Assembly: GCF_009497775.1 (NCBI RefSeq)
Contig: NZ_CP031012.1
Location: 4,057,235 to 4,121,234, forward strand
Length of the DNA stretch: 64,000 nucleotides
DNA from: Alcaligenes faecalis
GTDB taxonomy: Bacteria > Pseudomonadota > Gammaproteobacteria > Burkholderiales > Burkholderiaceae_B
Direction of reading: 5' to 3'
In this document: piece by piece, positions 15,909-55,087 of the stretch
How positions within the stretch are numbered: the first letter of the stretch is position 1
How the letters are laid out: each line of letters opens with the position of its first letter
Notes under the pieces: generated by a model
What the model was told of the DNA's origin: nothing
The model's database searches: none
The model's input: the letters and a program-made list of their open reading frames with translations, nothing else
Program-made: the position numbers and the translations under genes

Positions 15909-16008
15909 AGGCAGTCGTCAAGCAGGGTTAGAGTCCCTGCATTGCACGACACTCTAAACAGCACGACATTAGCATCCTCAAACACCGCTTCAAGCTAAAT
16001 CTAAAAAG

Positions 16009-16042
16009 GCCCTCAACATCTCAGCATGTTGAGGGCTTTTTT
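16009..16042 (+). terminator. Rho-independent terminator after cysG
   Basis: Stem GCCCTCAACAT (16009-16019) / ATGTTGAGGGC (16025-16035) followed by a run of seven T. A-rich sequence precedes the left arm, so weak function on the minus strand is also possible. From here to 16211 I see no further gene or signal. Confidence 0.9.
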
Positions 16043-16211: not shown

Positions 16212-17051
16212 CTAGCGCTGTCCAAAAGCCGCAAACAAGGCTCGCAAAGCACTATCCAGCAGATAGCCAATCAGACCAATCAGGACAATCACAGCCATCA
16301 GCTCGGAATACGCCATGCGATCACGCGTATCCAGAATCAGGTAGCCCAAACCGGCTGACACACCCAGCATTTCGCAGGGCACCAGCACAATCCACAAGAC
16401 ACCGATAGCCAGTCGGCTACCCGTCAGCACCGAGCCGACAATGCCGGGCAGAATCAAATACAAAAGCGTTTCCAGCCTGGTAGCCGCCAGACTGCGACCC
16501 AGCATCAGCCAGCGTGGATTCAAATGCCGCACGCCCGATGCCGTATTCAGCAAGACAGGCCAGACACCGGCTACACCCAGCAGAAAATAAATCGGTGCAT
16601 CCCCAATCCCGAAGGCCATGACAGCAATGGGCATCCAGGACAGGGGCGAGATCATGCGCAGGAACTGGAACAAGGGAGTCAATGCAGCGTGGGCTCGGGC
16701 TGACAAACCCAGCAGCAAACCGGCAGGCACGCCGACACCCAATGAAATCGCCAACCCTACAAAAATACGCTGCAAGCTGGCGCCTACGTGCATCCAGGTC
16801 TCTGACCAGCCCAGTATTTCCAACAGGCTATGAAACGCGGCTGCAGGCCCGAATTGCTGCATCAACGGGCTGCTGGACCAGGCTGTAGTCAGGTACCACA
16901 GCACGACTCCCGCCAACAAACCGCCCAAACCCCACAAAGTGCTGGCAATCCAGGCATTCATTTTGGGACGTCGCAAAGACGCAGCCGATCGTGGATCAGA
17001 CTGCGCCAAAGGCGTCACACGGGAAGAAGAAGCAGACACACTCAAACTCAT
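16212..17051 (-). CDS. ABC transporter permease, SsuC/NrtB/TauC type
   Basis: A 279-residue integral membrane protein with about six hydrophobic segments after a polar N-terminal 30 residues. It has the family-typical segment ISPLSWMPIAVMAFGIGDAPIYFLL and a cytoplasmic EAA-like loop around LGRSLAATRLETLLYLILPG. Its start overlaps the stop of the substrate-binding protein gene by four bases (ATGA), so the proteins should be made in step. It is the last gene of the minus-strand operon. Substrate is unknown; family members import sulfonates, taurine, nitrate or pyrimidine precursors. Location next to cysJIG favours an organosulfur compound. Confidence 0.85.
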   Translation of the reverse strand: MSLSVSASSSRVTPLAQSDPRSAASLRRPKMNAWIASTLWGLGGLLAGVVLWYLTTAWSSSPLMQQFGPAAAFHSLLEILGWSETWMHVGASLQRIFVGLAISLGVGVPAGLLLGLSARAHAALTPLFQFLRMISPLSWMPIAVMAFGIGDAPIYFLLGVAGVWPVLLNTASGVRHLNPRWLMLGRSLAATRLETLLYLILPGIVGSVLTGSRLAIGVLWIVLVPCEMLGVSAGLGYLILDTRDRMAYSELMAVIVLIGLIGYLLDSALRALFAAFGQR

Positions 17052-18244
17052 ACAACAATGCTCTCGTTGCGGCTGTATTGCTCGGACAAGCCAAACTGCG
17101 CCAGACCACCCTGCTTTTCCAAAGCGGCACGGACAAAGCGGTCATCCACCAGATCACTGGCTACATGCTCAGGAGACAGCCCTTCCAGAAAACCACGTTC
17201 GCCCTGGATCAGGGTCCCTTGCAGCATTTGCACCAAGGACTCGGTGTAACTGGGAAAGGGATAGGGTTGAAAATCAATGCGCTGATCATCCCAGTCCGGG
17301 TGACGAATCACGCCAGACTTCACGTATTGAGCACGATCAGCCGGGTCCGGGGACAACACTTTCAACAGGTTTTCCTGAGTGTGCGGGGTGTAGCGATTCC
17401 CACCCTCACGCGACAGGATCTGGGCCGCCTCGGCACGGTTGCTGCGTATCCAGATCTGCGCCTTGACCAGACCATCCACCACGCCTTGCGACCATTGGGG
17501 ACGAGTCTGCAAATCCTGCTCGTGCATGAAGGCCACGCAACAGGCGTGATCGCGCCAAACGTCGCCAGTAAAGCGCAGGATGCGGCCCATGCCCTGGGTT
17601 TCTGCCAAGGCATTGAACGGTTCGGCCACAGTAAAACCGGCAATCCGCCCCGAAGCCAAGGCCGGAGGCATGTCGGCAGGCGCCATCACCACCAGATTGA
17701 CCTCGTTGGAAGCCAACGCACCGGAGTTTTTCACGACCGGCGTCAGGCCATGTGCTTTGAGCACATGCTGCAACACCACGTTGTGAATCGAATACCAGAA
17801 AGGAATAGCCACCGTCTGCCCGCCCAGTTGCTCGGCCGAGCTGATGTTCTGCGCCACCGTGATGGCAGAGCCACTCATGTGATTCCAGGCCACCACTTTT
17901 GCAGGCACTTTGCTGCCGTAGCGTGCCCACACCGTCATGGGCGAGAGCAAGTGCACCAGATTGACCTGACCGGAGATAAAGGCCTCGATCAGTTGGGCCC
18001 AACTGCGCACCATCACGGGCTTTTCCACCGCAATGCCTGCTTCTTCAAAGTATCCATTGTGATGCGCCACCAACATGGCGGTGGCATCGGTAATTGGCAA
18101 ATAACCGATACGCAAAGGCGCATTCGACTCGCTCTGTGCACGGGCAACCCCTTGGGCCAGCAAAGGCGCAGCGCCCGCGACAGTCAGCAGGGACGCCAGT
18201 TTCAGTAAGTCGCGACGGGTACGGGACGTAGGAGATTCAATCAT
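17048..18244 (-). CDS. Tat-exported ABC substrate-binding protein, NrtA/SsuA-like
   Basis: 398 residues from the ATG at 18244, chosen because it has AAGGTG upstream and begins directly with a signal. The N-terminus shows a twin-arginine signal (SRTRRDLLKLAS, then a hydrophobic stretch ending in ARAQS), so the protein is probably exported folded. The mature domain begins LRIGYLPITDATAMLVAHHNG and carries SGQVNLVHLLSPM and GRIAGFTVAEPFN, as in NrtA/CmpA/SsuA-type proteins. It lies between the ATPase (ten-base gap) and the permease (four-base overlap). The ligand cannot be read from sequence; nitrate, bicarbonate and sulfonates all occur in the family. Confidence 0.85.
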   Translation of the reverse strand: MIESPTSRTRRDLLKLASLLTVAGAAPLLAQGVARAQSESNAPLRIGYLPITDATAMLVAHHNGYFEEAGIAVEKPVMVRSWAQLIEAFISGQVNLVHLLSPMTVWARYGSKVPAKVVAWNHMSGSAITVAQNISSAEQLGGQTVAIPFWYSIHNVVLQHVLKAHGLTPVVKNSGALASNEVNLVVMAPADMPPALASGRIAGFTVAEPFNALAETQGMGRILRFTGDVWRDHACCVAFMHEQDLQTRPQWSQGVVDGLVKAQIWIRSNRAEAAQILSREGGNRYTPHTQENLLKVLSPDPADRAQYVKSGVIRHPDWDDQRIDFQPYPFPSYTESLVQMLQGTLIQGERGFLEGLSPEHVASDLVDDRFVRAALEKQGGLAQFGLSEQYSRNESIVV

Positions 18245-18254
18245 GAAATGCACC

Positions 18255-19064
18255 TTACAAAACAGAAGCGTGAACCGCCTGGGAGAGGCTTTGCTCCAGG
18301 CTGGCCACAATTTCCAGGCGTATGGCCTGAAGCCAGTTATCCAGATGAGATCGGGGATGTGCCGGGCAGCTCCACTCACGCTGCAAACCGGCAGGACGGC
18401 CACCTAAAAGCAGGACGCGGTCTGCCAACAAGAGGGCTTCATCAATATCGTGAGTAACCAGCACAATGGCGCAGCCGGTCTGGTCGCGTATCGACAGAAT
18501 CAGCTCCTGCATCTGACGACGGGTTACTTCGTCCAGCGCGCCAAAAGGTTCGTCCATCAACAAGACTTGTGGGCGTCGAGCCAGACAACGCGCAATGGCA
18601 ACGCGCTGTGCCATACCGCCCGACAAGGCGCCAGGACGCTGATGACGGCTTTCATATAAACCAACCTGGCGCAGCGCCTGTTCAACTCGCAGGCGACGTT
18701 CTGCCGCGGATACGGAAGGCTGACGAGCAAAGCCCAGGCCAAAGCCGGTATTGGCCTGCACATTTAGCCAAGGCAAAAGAATGGCCTCCTGAAACGCCAT
18801 GGCCAAAGCGGGATGCACTCCACGCACGGCCTGCCCCAGAAAGGACACCTCACCCTGAGTGGGCGTTTGCAGACCGGCCAGTACCCGCAACAAGGAGGAC
18901 TTGCCCACCCCGCTGGGACCCAGCAGCGCCACGATCTCGCCCGCGCGCACGTTCAAGTCCAGGTTCTGCAAGATCGTCTGGCCACCGTAGGCCAGACTGA
19001 TCCCCCGTGCGGACAAGAGCCCGGCCCTTTCAGAATCGGTATGCGAGGGGGCGGCGGAACTCAT
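18255..19064 (-). CDS. ABC transporter ATPase, SsuB/NrtD/TauB type
   Basis: A 269-residue ATPase with Walker A GPSGVGKSSLL, Q-loop MAFQEAILLPWLN, signature LSGGMAQRVAIARCL, Walker B VLLMDEPFGALDEV and the switch His in LVTHDIDEAL. MAFQEAILLPWLNV is the form seen in nitrate/sulfonate importers. Its start overlaps the end of the acyl-CoA-dehydrogenase-like gene by four bases, which ties the transporter and the enzyme into one operon. Confidence 0.88.
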   Translation of the reverse strand: MSSAAPSHTDSERAGLLSARGISLAYGGQTILQNLDLNVRAGEIVALLGPSGVGKSSLLRVLAGLQTPTQGEVSFLGQAVRGVHPALAMAFQEAILLPWLNVQANTGFGLGFARQPSVSAAERRLRVEQALRQVGLYESRHQRPGALSGGMAQRVAIARCLARRPQVLLMDEPFGALDEVTRRQMQELILSIRDQTGCAIVLVTHDIDEALLLADRVLLLGGRPAGLQREWSCPAHPRSHLDNWLQAIRLEIVASLEQSLSQAVHASVL

Positions 19065-20152
19065 ACGGCATCCTGCCCAAGTTCAGCTTTCAGCTGCGCC
19101 ACAGTAGGCGAAATCAAAGGCACCAACATGGCTTCACGATAACGACGCAGCAGTTGCGGATGCTTGCCCTGCATATAGGTCGCGCCGCCAATCGCTGAGC
19201 TTTCCAAGGCCACGGCCTGCGACGCCAGACTGCTTAGCTCGATACGGACCTTGAACAGATCAGGCGGCGTAGCCGAACCGGGTTTACGTACGGCATCAAC
19301 CAGCACATCCGACAATTCCTGCACGCGATCCAGCAAGCGGCGAGCAGGCTGTTCCTGTACCCATTGGCAGCGTGGCGCATCCAACACTTGCTTCAAGGAG
19401 CGACGTGCCAGGCCCATGGTCATACCGCATTGCAGCGCCATGAAACGGGGACGTACCGAGCGCACAAAATGACCCGCATCAGGATGCAGCAAACGCTCCT
19501 GTCCCAGACGCACGGCATTGAACGTCAAGGCAGCGGTATTGCTGCCACGCAGTCCGACCAGATCCAGGTCCGCCGAACGTTCCAATCCTTGATCGCCCAG
19601 TTCTGCCACCCAGATACCGGCCTGGTCCTCGGGCATGGCGGCCACAATGGCGACCAGACAATTGCCGGGGCGCAGATTGGTAATCCAGGGCAAGCGACCT
19701 TCAAACTGCCATTGCCCTTGCTCGGGCTGGGCGCGCACTTGCAGCTCTTCAATACCACCCAAAAACTTGATGGCATTGGACAGTCCCGTTGCACCCGCAA
19801 TACTGCCGTCCAGCAAACCGGGTAGATAACGCTCGCGCATGGCGGGGTCCTGAACATCACGCAGGTATTCAATAAAGGTGCGCTGGCTCCACAGGACAAA
19901 ACCTGCCGTCAGCGAATGTTCAGCCACTTCCACGATGGATTGAACGGCATCGCCAAAGTCGGAAAAGTCTGCTTTCAGGCCCAGGCTCAACAAACCGTCT
20001 TGCGCCAGGCGAGGCAGCAAAGCCTGCGCCTGGGAGGCATCGCTATCCAGCGATAGGGCATGCTCCTCCAGCCACTGGGCCAAGCCGGGCGACAAAACAG
20101 GGCGTTCTGAGGCCAGCACAGGCTGCTCAGCGCGCTTTAAGGCGTTTCCCAT
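19061..20152 (-). CDS. Acyl-CoA-dehydrogenase-fold flavoprotein, possible monooxygenase (SfnB/DszC-like)
   Basis: 363 residues with the acyl-CoA dehydrogenase fold: a helical N-terminus, a central beta domain (PWITNLRPGNCLVAIVAAMP, LVGLRGSNTAALTFNAVRLG) and a C-terminal helical bundle. Segments such as VLWSQRTFIEYL replace the usual acyl-CoA handling motifs, and I see no clear catalytic Glu like that of FadE. Relatives near SsuABC-type transporters are often reduced-flavin monooxygenases of sulfur scavenging (SfnB, DszC). It overlaps the AhpD-like gene by 16 bases and the ATPase gene by four. True dehydrogenase activity cannot be excluded. Confidence 0.7.
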   Translation of the reverse strand: MGNALKRAEQPVLASERPVLSPGLAQWLEEHALSLDSDASQAQALLPRLAQDGLLSLGLKADFSDFGDAVQSIVEVAEHSLTAGFVLWSQRTFIEYLRDVQDPAMRERYLPGLLDGSIAGATGLSNAIKFLGGIEELQVRAQPEQGQWQFEGRLPWITNLRPGNCLVAIVAAMPEDQAGIWVAELGDQGLERSADLDLVGLRGSNTAALTFNAVRLGQERLLHPDAGHFVRSVRPRFMALQCGMTMGLARRSLKQVLDAPRCQWVQEQPARRLLDRVQELSDVLVDAVRKPGSATPPDLFKVRIELSSLASQAVALESSAIGGATYMQGKHPQLLRRYREAMLVPLISPTVAQLKAELGQDAV

Positions 20153-20697
20153 GCGTAGGCCTCCAGCTGGCTATTGAGCGGCGTACGGGCCAGATTATTG
20201 GCAAAGTTGCAGATCGTCGCCAAGCCGATGCCGGTAATCACTTCCAGAGCCTGCTGGTCGCCGTAACCCGCTGCACGGAAATCGGCCAGAGCCTGATCCG
20301 ACACCTGACCACGGGTATCAATCACGGCGCGGCTGAACAAAGCCAATGCTTGCAGGCGCTCGTCGTTGATCTGGTCAAAGCCACGCGCACGCAAGGCAGC
20401 CAGGATTTCCGGGTCCAGCTTGGCTTTATTGGTCGCAATGGCGGTGTGACCAGCCACGCAGAAGCGGCAACCATGAGTGGTGCCAGCGACCAGTTGCACC
20501 ACCTCGCGCTCGACCAGCGACAGGCTGGCGGTGGCGTTCAGGGCGGACATATCCTGATAGGCTTGCAGGGCAACGGGCGCATTGGCCAAAATAGCCAGCA
20601 GATTGGACAAAAAGCCGCTACCACGCACAGCTTTTTCAAGGGCTGGTTTGACCGCCTCTGGTGCGGAGTCCACAGTATGCAAAGTTAAGCGGGTCAT
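20137..20697 (-). CDS. AhpD/carboxymuconolactone-decarboxylase-family protein, peroxidase-like
   Basis: A 186-residue protein. The catalytic signature is HGCRFCVAGHT, with Cys77, Cys80 and His84 forming the CxxC-x3-H of AhpD-like peroxidases. It is the first gene of the minus-strand operon and is divergent from the cupin-AraC gene at 20827. AraC regulators with a cupin_6 domain are often next to such genes. It may remove peroxide made by uncoupled flavin chemistry of the next enzyme; this is inferred. Its end overlaps the flavoprotein gene by 16 bases. Confidence 0.8.
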   Translation of the reverse strand: MTRLTLHTVDSAPEAVKPALEKAVRGSGFLSNLLAILANAPVALQAYQDMSALNATASLSLVEREVVQLVAGTTHGCRFCVAGHTAIATNKAKLDPEILAALRARGFDQINDERLQALALFSRAVIDTRGQVSDQALADFRAAGYGDQQALEVITGIGLATICNFANNLARTPLNSQLEAYAWETP

Positions 20698-20702
20698 GAT
20701 GG

Positions 20703-20741
20703 CGACAATTCCTTAGTTAATCCGAGAAGGTTTTATTGTCG
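20703..20741. promoter_or_regulatory. Inverted repeat in the divergent promoter region
   Basis: CGACAAT (20703-20709) and ATTGTCG (20735-20741) are perfect 7-base inverted arms about three helical turns apart. They sit between the AhpD-like start (20697, minus strand) and the AraC start (20827, plus). The position suits an operator for the AraC regulator or its partner. No clear sigma-70 promoter could be fixed. Confidence 0.35.
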
Positions 20742-20826
20742 ATTGACTGGCGCCTTATCTCCATGTGCGAACATAGCGGTATTCATATTAAAAATATCCA
20801 CGAAAAGAAATAAGCATATTTTCTGC

Positions 20827-21795
20827 ATGAGCGACTCTGCCTTTCCTGACAGCCATTGCGCTGTCGATTCCAAAGACACAGGACACCCTGTGGAGGAACT
20901 GCTCTTGTCCGGGCTGGAGATCTCGGCCAGCCTGTTTCACTTGGGCCAGTACTGCAATCAATGGGAAAGCAGCCTGCACGGACATCAACGGGCAGGCTTT
21001 CATGTGGTCTTGCATGGGCCGTGCTGGCTGCATATTCAGCATCAGGACGCCCTGGCCTTGCAGGCGGGTGATGCGGTGTTCTTCTTGCGGGATGTGCCCC
21101 ATCGCCTAAGCTCATCGCCCACGCCGCCAGACTGGAACGCGGCCATGCAGCGGCAAACCATGCAGAATCTGGAGCCGCAGGTGCCGCAAAGCACGGGTTT
21201 GCTCTGTGGTTTCCTGGATCTGGGGCGTGGTTTGAGCGAATTGCTGCTGGCAACCGTGCCTGATGTTTTATTGATTGATGGTTCTCAGGCAGATGCGGAC
21301 TCTGGACGTCCTTTGCTGGACTTGATCCAGGCCGAGATGCAGCGGCAGCCACAGGCCAATTCCAGCCTGCTGGAAAAACTGGTGGAACTGTTATTGTTCT
21401 ATACCTTGCGCCAGCAAATCGGGCAGACACCGGCTGAAGGGGCCCTGCCTGCGGGCTTGATTCATCTGGCCAGCGATGCTGCGTTTGGTGGTTTGATCGA
21501 GCAACTGCTGCGAGAGCCTGCCAAAGCCTGGTCGGTGGATGATATGGCCGCCTACCTGAATATGTCACGTGCCGCCTTTCACCGCCGCTTTACTCTGCTC
21601 TGTGGGATGGCACCGGCCCAGGTGCTGCTGCAGCTGCGTATGCAGCTCGCCAAGCGTCAGCTGGAGCAAGGGCTGACCATGGAACAGATTGCCGAGCGTA
21701 TTGGCTATAGCTCGGCGGCCGCCTTTAGCGCCGCATTCAGGCGCAGTGTGGGTGTCAGCCCCGCGCAGTGGCGCAAGCAAGACGCGCGTAGCTAA
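20827..21795 (+). CDS. AraC-family regulator with N-terminal cupin (cupin_6)
   Basis: 322 residues from the ATG at 20827. A TTG start at 20743 is possible but no ATG lies between, and the extension looks non-coding. The N-terminal half is a cupin-like sensing domain (HQRAGFHVVLHGPCWLHIQ, LQAGDAVFFLRDVPHRL). The C-terminal 100 residues hold two AraC helix-turn-helix motifs (WSVDDMAAYLNMSRAAFHRR and MEQIAERIGYSSAAAFSAAF). It is divergent from the AhpD-like/flavoprotein/ABC operon and is its probable local regulator. The inducer is unknown. Confidence 0.85.
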   Translation: MSDSAFPDSHCAVDSKDTGHPVEELLLSGLEISASLFHLGQYCNQWESSLHGHQRAGFHVVLHGPCWLHIQHQDALALQAGDAVFFLRDVPHRLSSSPTPPDWNAAMQRQTMQNLEPQVPQSTGLLCGFLDLGRGLSELLLATVPDVLLIDGSQADADSGRPLLDLIQAEMQRQPQANSSLLEKLVELLLFYTLRQQIGQTPAEGALPAGLIHLASDAAFGGLIEQLLREPAKAWSVDDMAAYLNMSRAAFHRRFTLLCGMAPAQVLLQLRMQLAKRQLEQGLTMEQIAERIGYSSAAAFSAAFRRSVGVSPAQWRKQDARS

Positions 21796-22119: not shown

Positions 22120-22395
22120 TTAGATCACGCGGGCTGCTTCGATCAGACGCACAACAGTCCAGGACTTGCTGCGGCTGATAGGACGGCCTTCGGAAATCTC
22201 AACGGTATCGCCTTCGTTGTACTGGTTGGTCTCGTCGTGCGCTTTGTATTTATTGGAGCGGACGATGATCTTGCCATACAAGGGATGTTTAACGCGGCGT
22301 TCAACCAGAACGACGACAGTTTTGTCCATCTTGTTGCTGACAACTTGACCAATCAGGGTACGTTGACGTTTTTCGGTAGTTTGAGTTTCGCTCAT
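22120..22395 (-). CDS. rpsQ: 30S ribosomal protein S17
   Basis: 91 residues from the ATG at 22395, chosen because it begins the family region and follows the rpmC stop by one base. The family signatures [27 protein letters not shown] and a [24 protein letters not shown] block are present (split here for length). S17 binds the 5' domain of 16S rRNA. It is the last gene of the S10-type operon, the same end point as in E. coli, but no rplN/spc operon follows here. Confidence 0.97.
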
Positions 22396-22396
22396 C

Positions 22397-22588
22397 TTAC
22401 TTTCCTGCGGTCTCAGCCATGACAGTACGGACACGAGCGATGTCGCGACGTACTTTGCCCAATTGGCTGGTGTTGGAAAGCTGTTGAGTAGCACGCTGCA
22501 TGCGCAGGTTAAATTGTGCTTTCAACAGGCTCTCGAGCTCTTTCTGGAGCTCGGCGGCATCTTTGGTACGGAGTTCGCTGGCTTTCAT
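22397..22588 (-). CDS. rpmC: 50S ribosomal protein L29
   Basis: 63 residues with the L29 signatures [20 protein letters not shown] and [21 protein letters not shown]29 sits at the exit of the peptide tunnel near L23. It is between rplP (nine-base gap) and rpsQ (one-base gap). Confidence 0.97.
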
Positions 22589-22597
22589 GACGTCTCC

Positions 22598-23014
22598 TTA
22601 AGCACCGATCTGACGCGTTACGAACGTCGTCGAGATAGGCAGCTTGGCAGCGGCCAGACGGAATGCTTCGCGTGCCAGCTCTTCGCTAACACCTTCCATT
22701 TCGTACAGGACCTTGCCTGGTTGAATCTCAGCGACCCAGAACTCTGGATTACCCTTACCGTTACCCATACGAACTTCGGCAGGTTTCTGCGAAATTGGCT
22801 TATCGGGGAAGATACGGATCCAGATGCGGCCACCACGTTTGATGTGACGGTTAATTGCACGACGTGCTGCTTCGATCTGGCGAGCAGTCAGACGGCCACG
22901 GTCAGTGGCTTTCAGACCAAATTCGCCAAACGAAACTTGCGCACCGCGAGTAGCCAGACCGGTGTTACGGCCTTTGTGCTCTTTGCGGTACTTTCTGCGA
23001 GAAGGTTGCAGCAT
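22598..23014 (-). CDS. rplP: 50S ribosomal protein L16
   Basis: 138 residues beginning [16 protein letters not shown], the standard L16 start, with [14 protein letters not shown] and [12 protein letters not shown] further on. L16 helps shape the A-site tRNA binding region of the large subunit. It starts three bases after the rpsC stop. Confidence 0.98.
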
Positions 23015-23017
23015 GTT

Positions 23018-23791
23018 TTATTCTCCTTCGGACGCAGCAGGAGCAGCGTCTTTACGAGGACCGCGGCCACGACCACCTGGACGGCGGTTTTCAGGGCGGT
23101 CACCACGTGGACGACGTGGGCGGCGCTCTTCAGGGGCTACGGTGTCAACAGGCATTTCGCCGTTAGGCAGCATGTCGCCCTTGTAGACCCAGACCTTGAT
23201 ACCGATGATCCCGTACGTCGTGTGCGCTTCGGAAGTACCGTAATCGATGTTAGCGCGCAGGGTGTGCAGAGGCACACGGCCTTCGCGGTACCATTCGGTA
23301 CGAGCGATTTCGATGCCGTTCAAGCGACCCGAGCTCATGATCTTGATGCCTTGGGCACCCAGACGCATGGCGTTTTGCATGGAACGCTTCATCGCACGAC
23401 GGAACATGATGCGCTTTTCCAGTTGCTGAGCAATGGAGTCGGCGATCAGTTGAGCGTCGGTTTCAGGTTTGCGAATTTCTTCGATATTAACGTGCACTGG
23501 CACGCCCAACAGGCGCTGCAGGTCAGCCTTCAGGCTTTCGATATCCTCGCCGCGCTTGCCGATCACTACACCAGGACGAGCCGAGTAAATGGTGATGCGA
23601 GCATTCTTGGCAGGACGCTCGATGACCACACGGCCAACGGACGCACTTTTCAGCTTGCGTTTCAGGTATTCGCGCACACGGATGTCGTCAGCCAACATCG
23701 TACCGAACTCAGCACCGTCAGCGTACCAACGCGAGCTCCAGTTACGGTTAACAGCCAGGCGGAACCCAATTGGGTGGATTTTCTGTCCCAT
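23018..23791 (-). CDS. rpsC: 30S ribosomal protein S3
   Basis: 257 residues, longer than E. coli S3 (233). It begins [12 protein letters not shown] and carries the KH-domain [10 protein letters not shown] segment. The extra length is a low-complexity Arg/Gly/Pro tail after about residue 220 ([17 protein letters not shown] and onward). Such tails are common in betaproteobacterial S3. It lies between rplV and rplP. Confidence 0.98.
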
Positions 23792-23800
23792 TGTGACTCC

Positions 23801-24133
23801 TTAAGCGCCGACTTTGACCACAATGTGGCAAGTCTGCTTCTCAATACGGTTACCGCGGCCTTTGGCTCGTGCAGAAAAACGCTTCAACGACTGAGCCTTG
23901 TCCACGTAAATGGAGGTGACTTTCAGTTCGTCGATGTCGGCGCCGTCATTGTGCTCAGCGTTGGCAATAGCCGATTCCAGAGCTTTCTTGATGATGCCAG
24001 CGGCTTTCTTAGGAGTGAAAGTCAGCGTATTCAGAGCGTGAGCGACGGACTTGCCGCGGACCATGTCCGCAACCAGACGTGCTTTTTGCGCCGAAATATG
24101 GACTCCACGAATAATTGCTGTAGTTTCCATCAC
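23801..24133 (-). CDS. rplV: 50S ribosomal protein L22
   Basis: 110 residues of the L22 family, with [20 protein letters not shown] near the start and [15 protein letters not shown] at the end. The L22 hairpin loop reaches the peptide tunnel constriction, where macrolide-affecting changes occur; nothing unusual is seen. It starts one base after the rpsS stop. Confidence 0.98.
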
Positions 24134-24409
24134 TTATCTCCGGGCCTTTTTGTCCGCAGCGTGACCCTTGAAAGTACGGGTCAAAGCGAACTCGCCGAGC
24201 TTGTGGCCAACCATGTTCTCGTTGATGTAAACGGGAATGTGTTGACGGCCATTGTGAACGGCAATCGTCAGCCCAATGAACTCGGGCAGGATGGTAGAGC
24301 GGCGCGACCAGGTTTTGATTGGTCGCTTGTCGTTACCCACAACGGCTGCGTCAACCTTTTTGATCAGGTGAGCATCAACGAATGGGCCTTTTTTGATCGA
24401 ACGTGACAT
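24134..24409 (-). CDS. rpsS: 30S ribosomal protein S19
   Basis: 91 residues starting [15 protein letters not shown], with [20 protein letters not shown] and the conserved [16 protein letters not shown] block. S19 contacts S13 in the small-subunit head. It is 12 bases downstream of rplB. Confidence 0.98.
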
Positions 24410-24421
24410 AGTGTTCGCCCC

Positions 24422-25249
24422 TTACTTGCGCTTACGGCGCGAAACAATCATGTTGTCTGTGCGCTTGTTACGACGGGTGCGGTAGCCCTTGGCAGGAGTA
24501 CCCCATGGGCTGACTGGCTCACGGCCTTCACCCGTACGACCTTCACCACCACCGTGCGGGTGATCGACTGGGTTCATCGCCACACCGCGAACGGTAGGAC
24601 GAATACCACGCCAGCGAACAGCACCGGCTTTACCGATTTGACGCAGGCTGTGATCGTGGTTGCTGACTTCGCCAATCGTGGCGCGGCAGTCGATGTGAAT
24701 GCGGCGAACTTCACCGGAACGCAGACGCACTTGAGCGTACGTGCCTTCACGAGCCAGCAACACAGCGGAACCACCAGCGGAACGAGCGATTTGAGCACCC
24801 TTACCAGGCAGCATCTCGATGCAGTGAATGGTTTGACCCACAGGAATGTTGCGGATAGGCAAAGTGTTGCCGGAACGGATAGGAGCTTCCGCGCCAGACA
24901 CAACCGTTGCACCCACTTCCAGACCACGAGGGGCGATGATGTAACGACGCTCGCCGTCTGCGTAGCACACCAATGCGATGTGAGCGCTGCGGTTAGGGTC
25001 GTATTCCAGACGTTCTACTTTCGCAGGAATACCGTCCTTGTTGCGACGGAAGTCGACAATACGGTAGTGCTGCTTGTGACCGCCGCCACGGTGACGAACC
25101 GTGATGTGGCCGTTGTTGTTACGGCCAGCACTGCTGGATTTCTTTTCCAGCAAAGCCGCGTAAGGAGCGCCTTTGTGCAGTTCAGGGTGAACCACTTTGA
25201 TCATGCCACGGCGACCTGGCGACGTTGGTTTTACTTTTACCAATGCCAT
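24422..25249 (-). CDS. rplB: 50S ribosomal protein L2
   Basis: 275 residues starting [16 protein letters not shown]. The C-terminal [18 protein letters not shown] carries the conserved His segment near the peptidyl-transferase centre. It is directly adjacent to rplW (one base between stop and start). Confidence 0.98.
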
Positions 25250-25250
25250 A

Positions 25251-25547
25251 TTAGTTCACCTCAGAAAAGTCGAGTTCCTGACCGGGCTTGAGCGAGACAT
25301 ATGCCTTGCGCACACTGCGGCGGCGACCCATGAAACGGCCAAAGCGCTTTTCCTTGCCCTTCTGATTGAGCACCTGCACCGACTCAACTTCTACTTTGAA
25401 CAGCAGTTCAATAGCAGCTTTGATTTCAGGCTTGGTAGCATCAGGAGCGACGCGGAAAGCGATTTGCTGATTTTTTTCGGCAACGTACGTGGCTTTTTCA
25501 GTCACGACAGGAGCCAGAATTACTTGCAATAGACGTTCGGCGTTCAT
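25251..25547 (-). CDS. rplW: 50S ribosomal protein L23
   Basis: 98 residues, with [20 protein letters not shown] at the start and [20 protein letters not shown] later. L23 docks signal recognition particle and trigger factor at the tunnel exit. It overlaps the rplD stop by four bases. Confidence 0.97.
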
Positions 25548-26164
25548 CCCAACATCTCCTCAAACTGAGCGACAGCCGCTTTGGTGACCAACACTTTTTT
25601 GTAGTGGATCAGGGACAGCGGGTCAGCGTAGCGTGGTTCAACCACAGCAACGTGAGGCAGGTTACGCGTAGCCAGGTACACGTTCTCGTCCAGCGCGTCG
25701 GTGATGATCAGCACGGATTCCAGGCCCAGGTCTTTCAGCTTGTTGGCTGCCAGACGGGTCTTGGGTGCTTCCAGAGTGAAGGAATCAACAACCAACAGAC
25801 GCTCGTCACGGACCAACTGAGACAGAATCGCGCTGATACCGGCGCGGTACATCTTCTTGTTGACCTTGTGCGTGTAGTTTTCTTCACCGGTGTTGGGGAA
25901 TGCACGACCGCCTCCACGCCACACGGGCGAGGATGTCATACCAGCACGAGCGCGGCCGGTGCCTTTCTGGCGCCATGGCTTCTTGGTGCTGTGGTTGACT
26001 TCGGCACGAGTCAATTGCTTGCTGTTACCGCTGCGAGCATTGGACTGGTATGCAACAACGATCTGGTGAACCAGGGCTTCGTTGAATTCACGACCGAAAA
26101 CGGTTTCGTTGGCCTGCAATGTGGATGCAGCTTGGCCTTGTTCGTTCAGGAGCTTCAGTTCCAT
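25544..26164 (-). CDS. rplD: 50S ribosomal protein L4
   Basis: 206 residues. The extended tunnel loop is the [19 protein letters not shown] region. In E. coli L4 autoregulates the S10 operon through the leader before rpsJ. Here rpsJ is elsewhere and the operon starts at rplC, so any L4 control would need a different leader. It starts three bases after the rplC stop. Confidence 0.98.
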
Positions 26165-53352: not shown

Positions 53353-53428
53353 TGGCAGGGGCAGAAGGAATCGAACCCTCAACCTTCGGTTTTGGAGACC
53401 GACGCTCTGCCAATTGAGCTATACCCCT
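53353..53428 (-). tRNA. trnW: tRNA-Trp (anticodon CCA)
   Basis: A 76-base gene with an encoded 3' CCA. The acceptor stem is AGGGGTA paired with TGCCCCT, and the T-loop reads GGTTCGATTCC. The anticodon stem TCGGT/ACCGA encloses CTCCAAA, giving anticodon CCA. It lies between tuf and secE, a common position. Confidence 0.97.
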
Positions 53429-53479
53429 ATACCTTGACAAACCGTAGCGCGCTACTTTGCTACGTTTGGCTTTTAGGCA

Positions 53480-53500
53480 AAAGAGGATATTAACCTCTTT
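53480..53500. repeat. Hairpin after the second tuf gene
   Basis: AAAGAGG (53480-53486) and CCTCTTT (53494-53500) form a stem in the gap between tuf and tRNA-Trp. On the minus strand only a short T-run follows (CCTCTTTTGCC), so it may be a weak terminator or processing stem. Confidence 0.45.
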
Positions 53501-53523
53501 CGCCCAAAATTACTACTCTTTTT

Positions 53524-54714
53524 TTACTTCAGGATCTTGGCTACGACACCAGCGCCAACGGTACGGCCACCTTCGCGAATAGCGAAGCGCAGACCTTCTT
53601 CCATGGCGATAGGAGCGATCAGGGACACTTTCATCGAAATGTTGTCGCCTGGCAGAACCATTTCCTTGTCTTCTGGCAGCTCGATCGTGCCGGTCACGTC
53701 AGTTGTACGGAAGTAGAACTGAGGACGGTAGCCCTTGAAGAAAGGAGTGTGACGACCACCTTCTTCTTTGGACAGAATGTACACTTCGGCGTCGAAGTCA
53801 GTGTGTGGCTTGATCGAACCAGGTTTGGCCAGAACTTGACCACGTTCCACGTCTTCACGCTTGGTACCACGCAGCAGCAGACCGACGTTATCGCCAGCTT
53901 CGCCTTGGTCCAGCAGTTTGCGGAACATTTCAACGCCGGTACAAATGGTCTTGACCGTGTCTTTGATACCCACGATTTCGATTTCTTCGCCGACTTTGAT
54001 GATGCCGCGCTCAATACGACCGGTCACAACCGTACCACGGCCGGAGATCGAGAACACGTCTTCAACAGGCATCAGGAACGTACCGTCAACAGCACGCTCA
54101 GGCGTAGGAATGTAGTTGTCCAGCGCTTCGGCCAGAGCCAGAACGGCTTGGCTGCCCAGTGGGCCTTCGTCGCCTTCCAGAGCCAGTTTGGCCGAACCCT
54201 TGATGATCGGGGTGTCGTCGCCAGGGAAGTCGTACTTGGACAACAGCTCGCGAACTTCCATTTCAACCAGTTCGATCAGCTCTTCGTCATCGACCATGTC
54301 GGCCTTGTTCAGGAACACGATGATGTAAGGAACGCCAACCTGACGGCTCAGCAGGATGTGCTCGCGAGTCTGGGGCATTGGGCCGTCAGCGGCCGAGCAA
54401 ACCAAGATAGCGCCGTCCATCTGGGCAGCACCAGTAATCATGTTCTTGACGTAGTCAGCGTGGCCGGGGCAGTCAACGTGAGCGTAGTGACGGTTAGGCG
54501 TTTCGTACTCAACGTGCGACGTGCTGATGGTGATACCACGTGCTTTTTCTTCAGGGGCGTTGTCGATCTGCGAGTAATCGCGTGCTTCGCCGCCGTATGC
54601 CTTGGACAGAACCGTGCAGATTGCAGCGGTCAGAGTGGTTTTACCGTGGTCAACGTGACCGATAGTACCGACGTTGACGTGCGGTTTAGTCCGTTCAAAC
54701 TTGCCTTTAGCCAT
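53524..54714 (-). CDS. tuf: Elongation factor Tu, second copy
   Basis: A 396-residue protein, identical in sequence to the copy at 30460-31650 apart from residue 395 (Leu here). DNA differences are confined mostly to the first and last few codons and the flanks. It sits in the tRNA-Tyr-Gly-Thr-tuf-tRNA-Trp-secE-nusG arrangement, the counterpart of tufB in E. coli, and is cotranscribed with the tRNAs. Confidence 0.98.
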
Positions 54715-54757
54715 GGCAGACTCCTGAAGGGATAGAACGATATAGAGAAGAGAGATG

Positions 54758-54833
<76 letters not shown>

Positions 54834-54870
54834 TTCAACTTCAGCCGAGAGTGGCTAAAGATTTTTTACT

Positions 54871-54944
54871 TGGAGCGGGTGAAGGGGATCGAACCCTCGT
54901 CTTAAGCTTGGAAGGCTTCTGCTCTACCATTGAGCTACACCCGC
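54871..54944 (-). tRNA. trnG: tRNA-Gly (anticodon TCC)
   Basis: A 74-base gene with encoded CCA. The acceptor stem is GCGGGTG/CACCCGC, the anticodon loop CTTCCAA gives TCC, and the T-arm is GGGTTCGATCCC. It lies in the tRNA cluster before tuf. Confidence 0.97.
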
Positions 54945-55000
54945 AGACTTTTCTTCACCCTCTCCTAAAGTCGCCTTGCTGGCTGACTCTAGAAAAGTGC

Positions 55001-55087
55001 TGGTGGTGGGAGTTGGATTCGAACCAACGTAGGCGCAGGGCCAACAGATTTACAGTCTGCCTCCTTTAACCACTCGGACATCCCACC
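55001..55087 (-). tRNA. trnY: tRNA-Tyr (anticodon GTA)
   Basis: An 87-base class II tRNA with a long variable arm and encoded CCA. The acceptor stem is GGTGGGA/TCCCACC, the anticodon stem is CAGAC-TGTAAAT-CTG with anticodon GTA. It is the first gene after the promoter at 55103-55131. Confidence 0.97.

Follow-up and report, generated by a model that had tools for sequence, protein, structure and literature searches.

An importer-flavoprotein operon of Alcaligenes faecalis with relatives in several phyla and a tentative role in scavenging sulfur from a small anion, possibly thiocyanate

The stretch analyzed here, hereafter the window, is a 64,000-nucleotide portion of the Alcaligenes faecalis genome (contig NZ_CP031012.1), in which five minus-strand genes spanning positions 16212 to 20697 encode an AhpD-like CxxC protein, a flavoprotein of the acyl-CoA dehydrogenase (ACAD) fold, and the ATPase, binding protein, and permease of an ATP-binding cassette (ABC) importer. 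These five and a cupin-AraC regulator gene are open reading frames at the positions given by the initial annotation of this DNA, and its claim of a single operon in this order held, with successive overlaps of 16, 4, and 4 bases and one 10-base gap between the genes for the ATPase and the binding protein. The divergent regulator gene was likewise borne out by its frame and its Pfam matches (Table 1). The start of the binding-protein gene was reset to the ATG preceding an RR signal of the twin-arginine translocation (Tat) type, the longest frame beginning at 18403. Within the intergenic region, every base of a block containing GTATTCATAT, TATCCACG, and AAAGAAATAA was identical in at least four of five Alcaligenes sequences, and no sigma-70-like match was found in this block.

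Table 1. Genes and other features at the operon, with positions in the window
Feature	Position	Strand	Evidence
AhpD-like (CMD) CxxC protein, flavoprotein partner	20137-20697	-	Pfam CMD 41.5 bits
Divergent ACAD-fold flavoprotein, putatively a monooxygenase	19061-20152	-	Profile of relatives vs isovaleryl-CoA dehydrogenase
ABC importer ATPase	18255-19064	-	Pfam ABC_tran 117 bits
Tat-type exported binding protein, invariant H233-x-C235-C236	17048-18244	-	Pfam NMT1_2 159.9 bits
ABC importer permease	16212-17051	-	Pfam BPD_transp_1 65.6 bits
Divergent cupin-AraC regulator, three conserved cysteines	20827-21795	+	Pfam Cupin_6 114.8 bits and HTH_18
Intergenic region, divergent promoters (unmapped)	20698-20826		Conserved block ~20780-20820
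Terminator-like hairpin between convergent cysJIG and the five-gene operon	16003-16042		Stem of 17 pairs, then T's

Our homology searches indicated that the gene set is not a chance arrangement, because 27 of the 30 retrieved loci, own genome included, kept the order AhpD, ACAD, ATPase, binding protein; these loci were of about 4 kb each, and the permease was instead checked in longer stretches. Of 200 genomes sampled from the host's family, 81 encoded a match to the flavoprotein at E ≤ 1e-20, and a phylum-wide search of 398 genomes found the binding protein in 17 (E ≤ 1e-60), again counting the genome of origin. The neighborhood comparison proposed in the initial annotation showed four genes in conserved order and a widespread set. 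Searches of plasmids with tblastn returned 46 records for the binding protein and 48 for the flavoprotein, and plasmid-borne copies occurred in Cyanobacteriota, Deinococcota, Thermomicrobiota, and Actinomycetota. One genome (G488) carried two AhpD-type operon copies (L089 and L090; L and G numbers are our handles for loci and genomes). A full-text search of the open-licence articles in PubMed Central (PMC) found, among the matches listed, no paper describing this gene set, which is widespread and apparently unnamed and would combine an importer with flavin-dependent desulfuration. The names its members currently bear (acyl-CoA dehydrogenase, carboxymuconolactone decarboxylase, ABC transporter) are uninformative about the job of the set.

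The initial annotation had argued for the release of sulfite from the presence of the sulfite reductase genes cysJIG next door. However, cysJIG lies on the plus strand and reads toward the operon, the two being convergent and separated by a hairpin followed by T's, which has the longest stem among nine terminator-like sites in the window (7.9 expected from shuffles). The adjacency was seen in the window and in the four Alcaligenes loci with sufficient flank (L003, L004, L005, and L035), in none of the 19 other loci of the same locus set, and in none of the further relatives' loci examined. The sulfite argument therefore fails, since the neighbor is both convergent and genus specific. By contrast, the view that this is no classic ssu or tau system stood, as Pfam and NCBIfam profiles of the operon proteins detected no SsuD, SsuE, or TauD, and SsuD is encoded elsewhere in the same genome (586.6 bits; cut-off, 518.2). 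Alkanesulfonates are thus probably served by an enzyme of their own.

The assignment of the importer to the nitrate/sulfonate class was supported by the ABC_tran, NMT1_2, and BPD_transp_1 domains and by the nearest NCBIfam profiles. For the ATPase these were taurine, nitrate, and sulfonate ATPases, none above its cut-off among the matches listed, and the binding protein scored 82.1 bits with the SsuA-family profile TIGR01728, below the cut-off of 163.5. At E ≤ 1e-6, the binding protein's single match in its own genome was itself. Seventy-seven aligned binding proteins were grouped by identity to that of the window into A (at least 49%, n = 50), B (38-49%, n = 17), and C (lower, n = 10). W82, H98, S152, H154, H233, C235, and C236 were invariant in all 77, including the 10 distant group C proteins, nine of which come from loci with the cyanase gene cynS. 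H122 and S126 were present in all 67 proteins of groups A and B regardless of the cysteine protein encoded with them, and group C had N122 and Q126 (N in one case). The H-x-C-C motif, common to the group C binding proteins of cyn loci (e.g., L112:10703-12100) and the window's family, contains a possible ligand-site cysteine. At two further loci (L101 and L102) group B binding proteins were encoded with no ACAD found within 18 kb.

Membership in the NMT1_2 family, alignment of the binding protein to NrtA- and CmpA-type domains, and a gene for hydroxyethylthiazole kinase next to the Pseudonocardia copy would be compatible with import of nitrate, bicarbonate, or a thiamine/pyrimidine precursor by a transporter to which the flavoprotein is unrelated. 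However, W102, Q155, and K269, which we take to be the nitrate ligands of NrtA, align with W82, S126, and C236 of the binding protein, a single numbering offset of 29 fitting all three, so that Gln155 is replaced by Ser126 in groups A and B and Lys269 by the invariant Cys236. These replacements make nitrate, a ligand that the initial annotation had named, in combination with no effect of sulfur starvation, as refuting its own proposal, unlikely, and we regard this explanation as very improbable. On the Pseudonocardia plasmid (L078:11967-14893), the copy is followed by the thiazole kinase, a luciferase-like monooxygenase, and a rhodanese-like gene.

The window's flavoprotein by itself matched no Pfam family, no Pfam or NCBIfam match named a specific family for it, and the NCBIfam SfnB profile did not match it. 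Its closest named records were those of A. faecalis AU14 (98%), Alcaligenes sp. SORT26 (95%), and A. pakistanensis (95%). The fold was recognized through its relatives, since 21 of 24 aligned family members matched Acyl-CoA_dh_N (PF02771) and the profile of the 24 matched isovaleryl-CoA dehydrogenase with an E value of 1.4e-33. This fold-level match is what would be expected of a true acyl-CoA dehydrogenase with a role in fatty-acid metabolism, which the initial annotation had named as an outcome that would overturn it. Position 348, which we take to be the place of the catalytic base Glu376 of medium-chain acyl-CoA dehydrogenase (MCAD), was nevertheless Thr in 77, Ser in six, and Ala in one of 84 aligned ACAD rows and never Glu; at the position used in our alignment as, presumably, that of the base of isovaleryl-CoA dehydrogenase, the window's protein has Arg236 rather than Glu; and the operon contains no beta-oxidation genes. 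Because Glu is missing from both known base positions, a true dehydrogenase is highly improbable. In the same 84 rows, W156, Q241, E340, and P349 were invariant, K129 was kept in 82, and R303, R336, and R339 in 83 each, and these conserved basic residues suggest a protein that would suit an anionic substrate. Predicted structures obtained from four near-identical input sequences each were poor, with predicted local distance difference test (pLDDT) scores of 42.7 for the flavoprotein and 37.4 for the binding protein.

The first gene was described by the initial annotation as encoding an AhpD-like CxxC protein, and the CMD domain and the CxxC-with-His core were both recovered. The protein exceeded the cut-off of TIGR00778 (31.3 against 27.8 bits) and fell below that of the Avi_7169-type TIGR04030 (42.7 against 233.15 bits); the closest solved chains were 6e8l and 3lvy. 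E65, C77, C80, and H84 were invariant in 10 aligned sequences, and GCxxCxxxH occurred at 36 of the 38 typed AhpD loci, two lacking the exact pattern. This partner is, however, exchanged among otherwise similar operons: AhpD/CMD accompanies the copies of Deinococcus, Agrobacterium, Variovorax, and Roseomonas; a DUF4242/SCO4226-like protein those of Synechococcus, Thermomicrobium, and Pseudonocardia; and OsmC those of Methylocystis, Marinobacter, Pseudosulfitobacter, Corynebacterium, and one Rhodobacteraceae, where its gene is usually 3' of the importer genes or separate from them. In the Bartonella plasmid copy, AhpD, OsmC, and DUF4242 were all absent. The OsmC relatives have one conserved Cys (12 of 12 aligned), and the stretch that we take to be the usual site of the second Ohr/OsmC cysteine reads (Y/W)SPV, the OsmC of L103 being an exception with extra cysteines; the three DUF4242 proteins share KCxC (CxC). 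Cysteine proteins from three Pfam families occupy one operon role. The swap weakens the earlier suggestion that the AhpD-like protein merely guards against flavin uncoupling and makes a specific thiol step more likely than peroxide guarding.

The neighbors of the different versions were compared at 85 fetched loci plus the window, typed as AhpD (38 and the window), OsmC (35), DUF4242 (3), or with no partner found (9); 4-kb, Alcaligenes, or duplicate stretches (L001-L034, L055-L072, and L123-L126) do not enter this typing. The loci were drawn from ACAD or binding-protein searches and not from cyanase searches, and the stretches inspected were about 4-25 kb long, with medians of 18 kb that were alike for the OsmC and AhpD types. 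cynS was present at 15 of the 35 OsmC loci and at none of the 39 of AhpD type (Fisher p 2e-6; p 8e-6 when three same-genus cyn loci, the only ones collapsed, were counted once), a contrast to be read with the qualification that some ACAD queries themselves came from cyn loci and may favor cyn-linked OsmC types. A flavin adenine dinucleotide (FAD) reductase, rubredoxin or ferredoxin linked, was found at 24 OsmC loci versus no AhpD locus (p 2e-11), and rhodanese at nine versus one, the latter a distant match (p 0.005). The arrangement can be tight: at L099 the genes run ATPase, binding protein, permease, OsmC, ACAD, rhodanese, cynS, FAD reductase, and 2Fe2S ferredoxin; at L054 and L112 the OsmC-ACAD-reductase block is followed immediately by genes for a second, distant importer and by cynS, and a sigma-54 regulator gene lies alongside; and at L115 the OsmC-ACAD-reductase genes are divergent from a second importer and cynS. 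L100, L104, L107, and others lack cynS, rhodanese, and reductase, so the link of OsmC with these genes is frequent, not constant. A small DUF302 gene was observed between ACAD and reductase at L128:8087-8482, where Pfam identified it, and at L132:4305-4685 and L137:795-1208, which look alike by eye.

The AhpD and OsmC versions are connected through their components. Between the window and L113, a locus with OsmC, ACAD, and reductase, the binding proteins share 63% identity, and the window's binding protein is 51-70% identical to those of AhpD operons outside Alcaligenes; the ACAD of L113 is in turn 73% identical to that of L115 (a cynS locus) and 69% identical to that of L127 (near rhodanese). 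The ACAD tree consists of two deep clades joined by a long branch with support of 100/100, clade I holding 25 AhpD rows including the window and clade II 34 of the 35 OsmC rows along with 14 AhpD rows, which requires at least two changes of the AhpD label. Since AhpD rows fall in both clades, similar AhpD-importer sets work with either kind of ACAD. Three loci (L044-L046) have a clade I ACAD and no importer, in surroundings that gave no clue to a substrate; in two of them (L044:8154-9320 and L045:8221-9339), which also lack AhpD, the gene is beside one for a Lon-like protease (named by eye), and these ACADs may be remnants or have taken on a new role.

The reading that we tentatively favor, with a probability of roughly 0.38, is that the operon takes up a small anion that carries sulfur, thiocyanate being the likeliest, and desulfurates it for sulfur scavenging; the function "uptake and oxidation" proposed in the initial annotation stands as an inference. 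The cyanase, rhodanese, and reductase genes of the OsmC versions suggest a substrate containing C, N, and S. A sulfur role also fits the surroundings of the Synechococcus plasmid pANL copy, which shares a 25-kb stretch with two cysK genes, epsC, srpI, and the cysteine desulfurase gene CyD. The published account in part mentions a sulfur metabolism cluster on pANL, whose borders are not given there (PMC9239245), and by position the copy would belong to it; SrpI and CyD are described in the relevant part of another report as increasing upon sulfur starvation, with knockouts lacking a growth defect (PMC8049743).

A concrete sequence of steps can be proposed, although we consider it doubtful in its details. 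The Tat-exported binding protein and the ABC importer would take up SCN-. The flavoprotein, reduced by a housekeeping reductase in the window and, in many OsmC versions, by the dedicated FAD reductase linked to rubredoxin or ferredoxin, would act as an S-oxygenase and convert the imported anion to hypothiocyanite (OSCN-). A cysteine of the AhpD, OsmC, or DUF4242 protein might then attack OSCN-, and hydrolysis of the protein-S-SCN adduct would release cyanate and leave a persulfide, which the CxxC of AhpD could resolve to sulfide and the single-Cys OsmC could pass to rhodanese. In this manner, ordinary heterotrophs and cyanobacteria would assimilate the sulfur and, where cyanase is present, the nitrogen as well. 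Such a mechanism would account for the partner swap, the pairing of rhodanese with single-Cys OsmC, the association with cyanase, and the sulfur-related neighbors.

Several observations weigh against thiocyanate. Identities of the window's ACAD to 11 OsmC-type ACADs are no higher than 20-24%, so that the claim of shared chemistry rests on common motifs and operon logic, and we know of no flavoprotein acting on thiocyanate. The AhpD versions are those without the reductase and, save for one distant match, without rhodanese, and the 15 cynS loci have binding proteins of group B (6) or C (9), never of the window's group A, which makes up 50 of the 77. In one genome (G025) an AhpD version coexists with an OsmC version, and in another (G150) an OsmC version coexists with a second set of ACAD and importer, perhaps a sign of two substrates. 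Among those of the 81 flavoprotein-bearing genomes whose loci were read (33 AhpD-typed and 12 OsmC-typed, 45 entries for 44 genomes with G025 in both), cyanase occurred in seven of the 33 AhpD-typed and nine of the 12 OsmC-typed ones; with 34 cyanase-bearing genomes among the 119 that lack the flavoprotein, AhpD hosts show no enrichment (p 0.5). Cyanase was found in none of 10 Alcaligenes genomes searched and not in the genome of the window, and was present in the Synechococcus elongatus control genome. A pure sulfur source would generate a small cyanate flux, for which cyanase could be dispensable in Alcaligenes, a plausible excuse rather than evidence. The relevant passages of the literature add that cyanase is unreliable as a marker of the thiocyanate route considered there (PMC6504805) and that all surveyed Guyparkeria genomes have cyn, SCN-R1 alone oxidizing thiocyanate for energy (PMC9032823). 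Three of our loci (L131, L133, and L134) may, as a guess, belong to Guyparkeria.

For the AhpD versions in particular, another organosulfur substrate is nearly as likely as thiocyanate. The same architecture would then serve ssu/sfn-like scavenging of a sulfonate, sulfinate, thiol, or heterocycle, with the flavoprotein as an ACAD-fold flavin monooxygenase and AhpD removing peroxide, and the OsmC/cyanase versions would be adapted to a different compound. This explanation, somewhat more tentative than the favored one, agrees with the leaning of the binding-protein and ATPase profiles toward SsuA, taurine, and nitrate families, with the pANL sulfur genes, with the missing cyanase in Alcaligenes and beside group A binding proteins, and with genes for a TauE/SafE family protein in the vicinity of the Variovorax copy and for an arylsulfatase in that of the Rhodobacteraceae copy. 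It is set back by the true SsuD elsewhere in the genome and by the aligned pocket-like positions, which are identical in group A and the cyanase-linked group B binding proteins, and a peroxide guard would explain poorly why the partner is swapped for cysteine proteins of other Pfam families. The cynS and rhodanese neighbors could alternatively indicate that the OsmC-type module oxidizes cyanide or a nitrile to cyanate and that the AhpD version does likewise. However, hydrogen cyanide crosses membranes and requires no binding protein, and the sulfur-related surroundings on pANL would be left unexplained, which renders this explanation quite improbable.

The divergent regulator brings in a further alternative. 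Its cysteines C43, C66, and C127 are kept in 18, 18, and 19 of 19 sequences, and its best NCBIfam profile is RclR (NF040475), which we take to represent an AraC-type regulator. According to the pertinent sections of PMC7950407, RclR of Pseudomonas aeruginosa activates the adjacent gene for an AhpD-like CxxC protein, RclX, under hypochlorous acid (HOCl) or hypothiocyanous acid (HOSCN), and both are required for protection. The operon might accordingly be one of defense, in which AhpD and the flavoprotein detoxify an oxidant or electrophile such as HOSCN, HOCl, or isothiocyanate, the importer restores sulfur, and the AraC protein senses thiols in the manner of RclR, with the profile match, the three cysteines, and the RclX precedent in its favor. 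The RclR score of 97.3 bits nonetheless falls below the cut-off of 400, an AraC gene is present at only 18 of 38 typed AhpD loci and at none of the seven loci L047-L053, and a dedicated importer would be hard to account for, so that a defense operon is improbable. With thiocyanate as the substrate, the regulator would sense a thiol oxidant or the sulfur status via its three conserved cysteines, and by analogy the precedent for an AhpD-like protein under HOSCN is a hint in the same direction.

If thiocyanate is indeed the substrate, the operon would constitute a further biological route for this compound, provide an enzyme for its use by heterotrophs, and represent new chemistry for a fold best known for dehydrogenases. 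Whatever the substrate, cysteine proteins of three Pfam families in one operon position are a testable clue to an unrecognized thiol step. As for the wider surroundings, a ribosomal-protein cluster (22120-26164, minus strand; S17, L16, S3, L2, and L4-like frames named by eye) follows directly past the AraC gene, the neighborhood rpsQ-AraC-operon-cysGIJ is retained in four longer Alcaligenes loci, and four tRNA genes lie at 53356-55087 on the minus strand.

Among known systems, the ssuEADCB and tau operons, as we understand them, resemble the window's operon in pairing an ABC importer of the same family with a flavin- or oxygen-using desulfuration enzyme; the operon differs in having an ACAD-fold enzyme and a cysteine partner in place of SsuD, SsuE, or TauD. 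The flavin monooxygenases DszC, SfnB/SfnC, and HsaA share the ACAD fold and, we assume, the lack of the dehydrogenase Glu, and the ACAD of the OsmC-type relative L115 gave weak profile matches to HsaA and SfnB, all far below cut-off, whereas the window's flavoprotein belongs to a separate family with a K129, Q241, R336/R339 signature. NrtA and the cyn-type importers likewise have NMT1_2-like binding proteins, and H-x-C-C is common to the 10 group C proteins; NrtA, by the residue numbers we assume, has Lys where the window has Cys, and groups A and B are unlike group C at positions 122 and 126. In the RclR-RclX system of P. aeruginosa, a regulator also adjoins the AhpD-like CxxC protein that it activates, but neither an importer nor a flavoprotein appears in the pertinent sections (PMC7950407), and the window's AraC protein is below the RclR equivalog cut-off. 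The Thioalkalivibrio thiocyanate dehydrogenase (TcDH) cluster, which according to the sections concerned includes ABC-type transporter genes and flavocytochrome c, rests on another enzyme, which carries a Tat signal, and these sections name no ACAD-fold flavoprotein, AhpD, OsmC, or NMT1-type binding protein (PMC5744179). What the proposed reaction would have in common with TcDH, among the TcDH and thiocyanate hydrolase pathways, is its products, cyanate and reduced sulfur.

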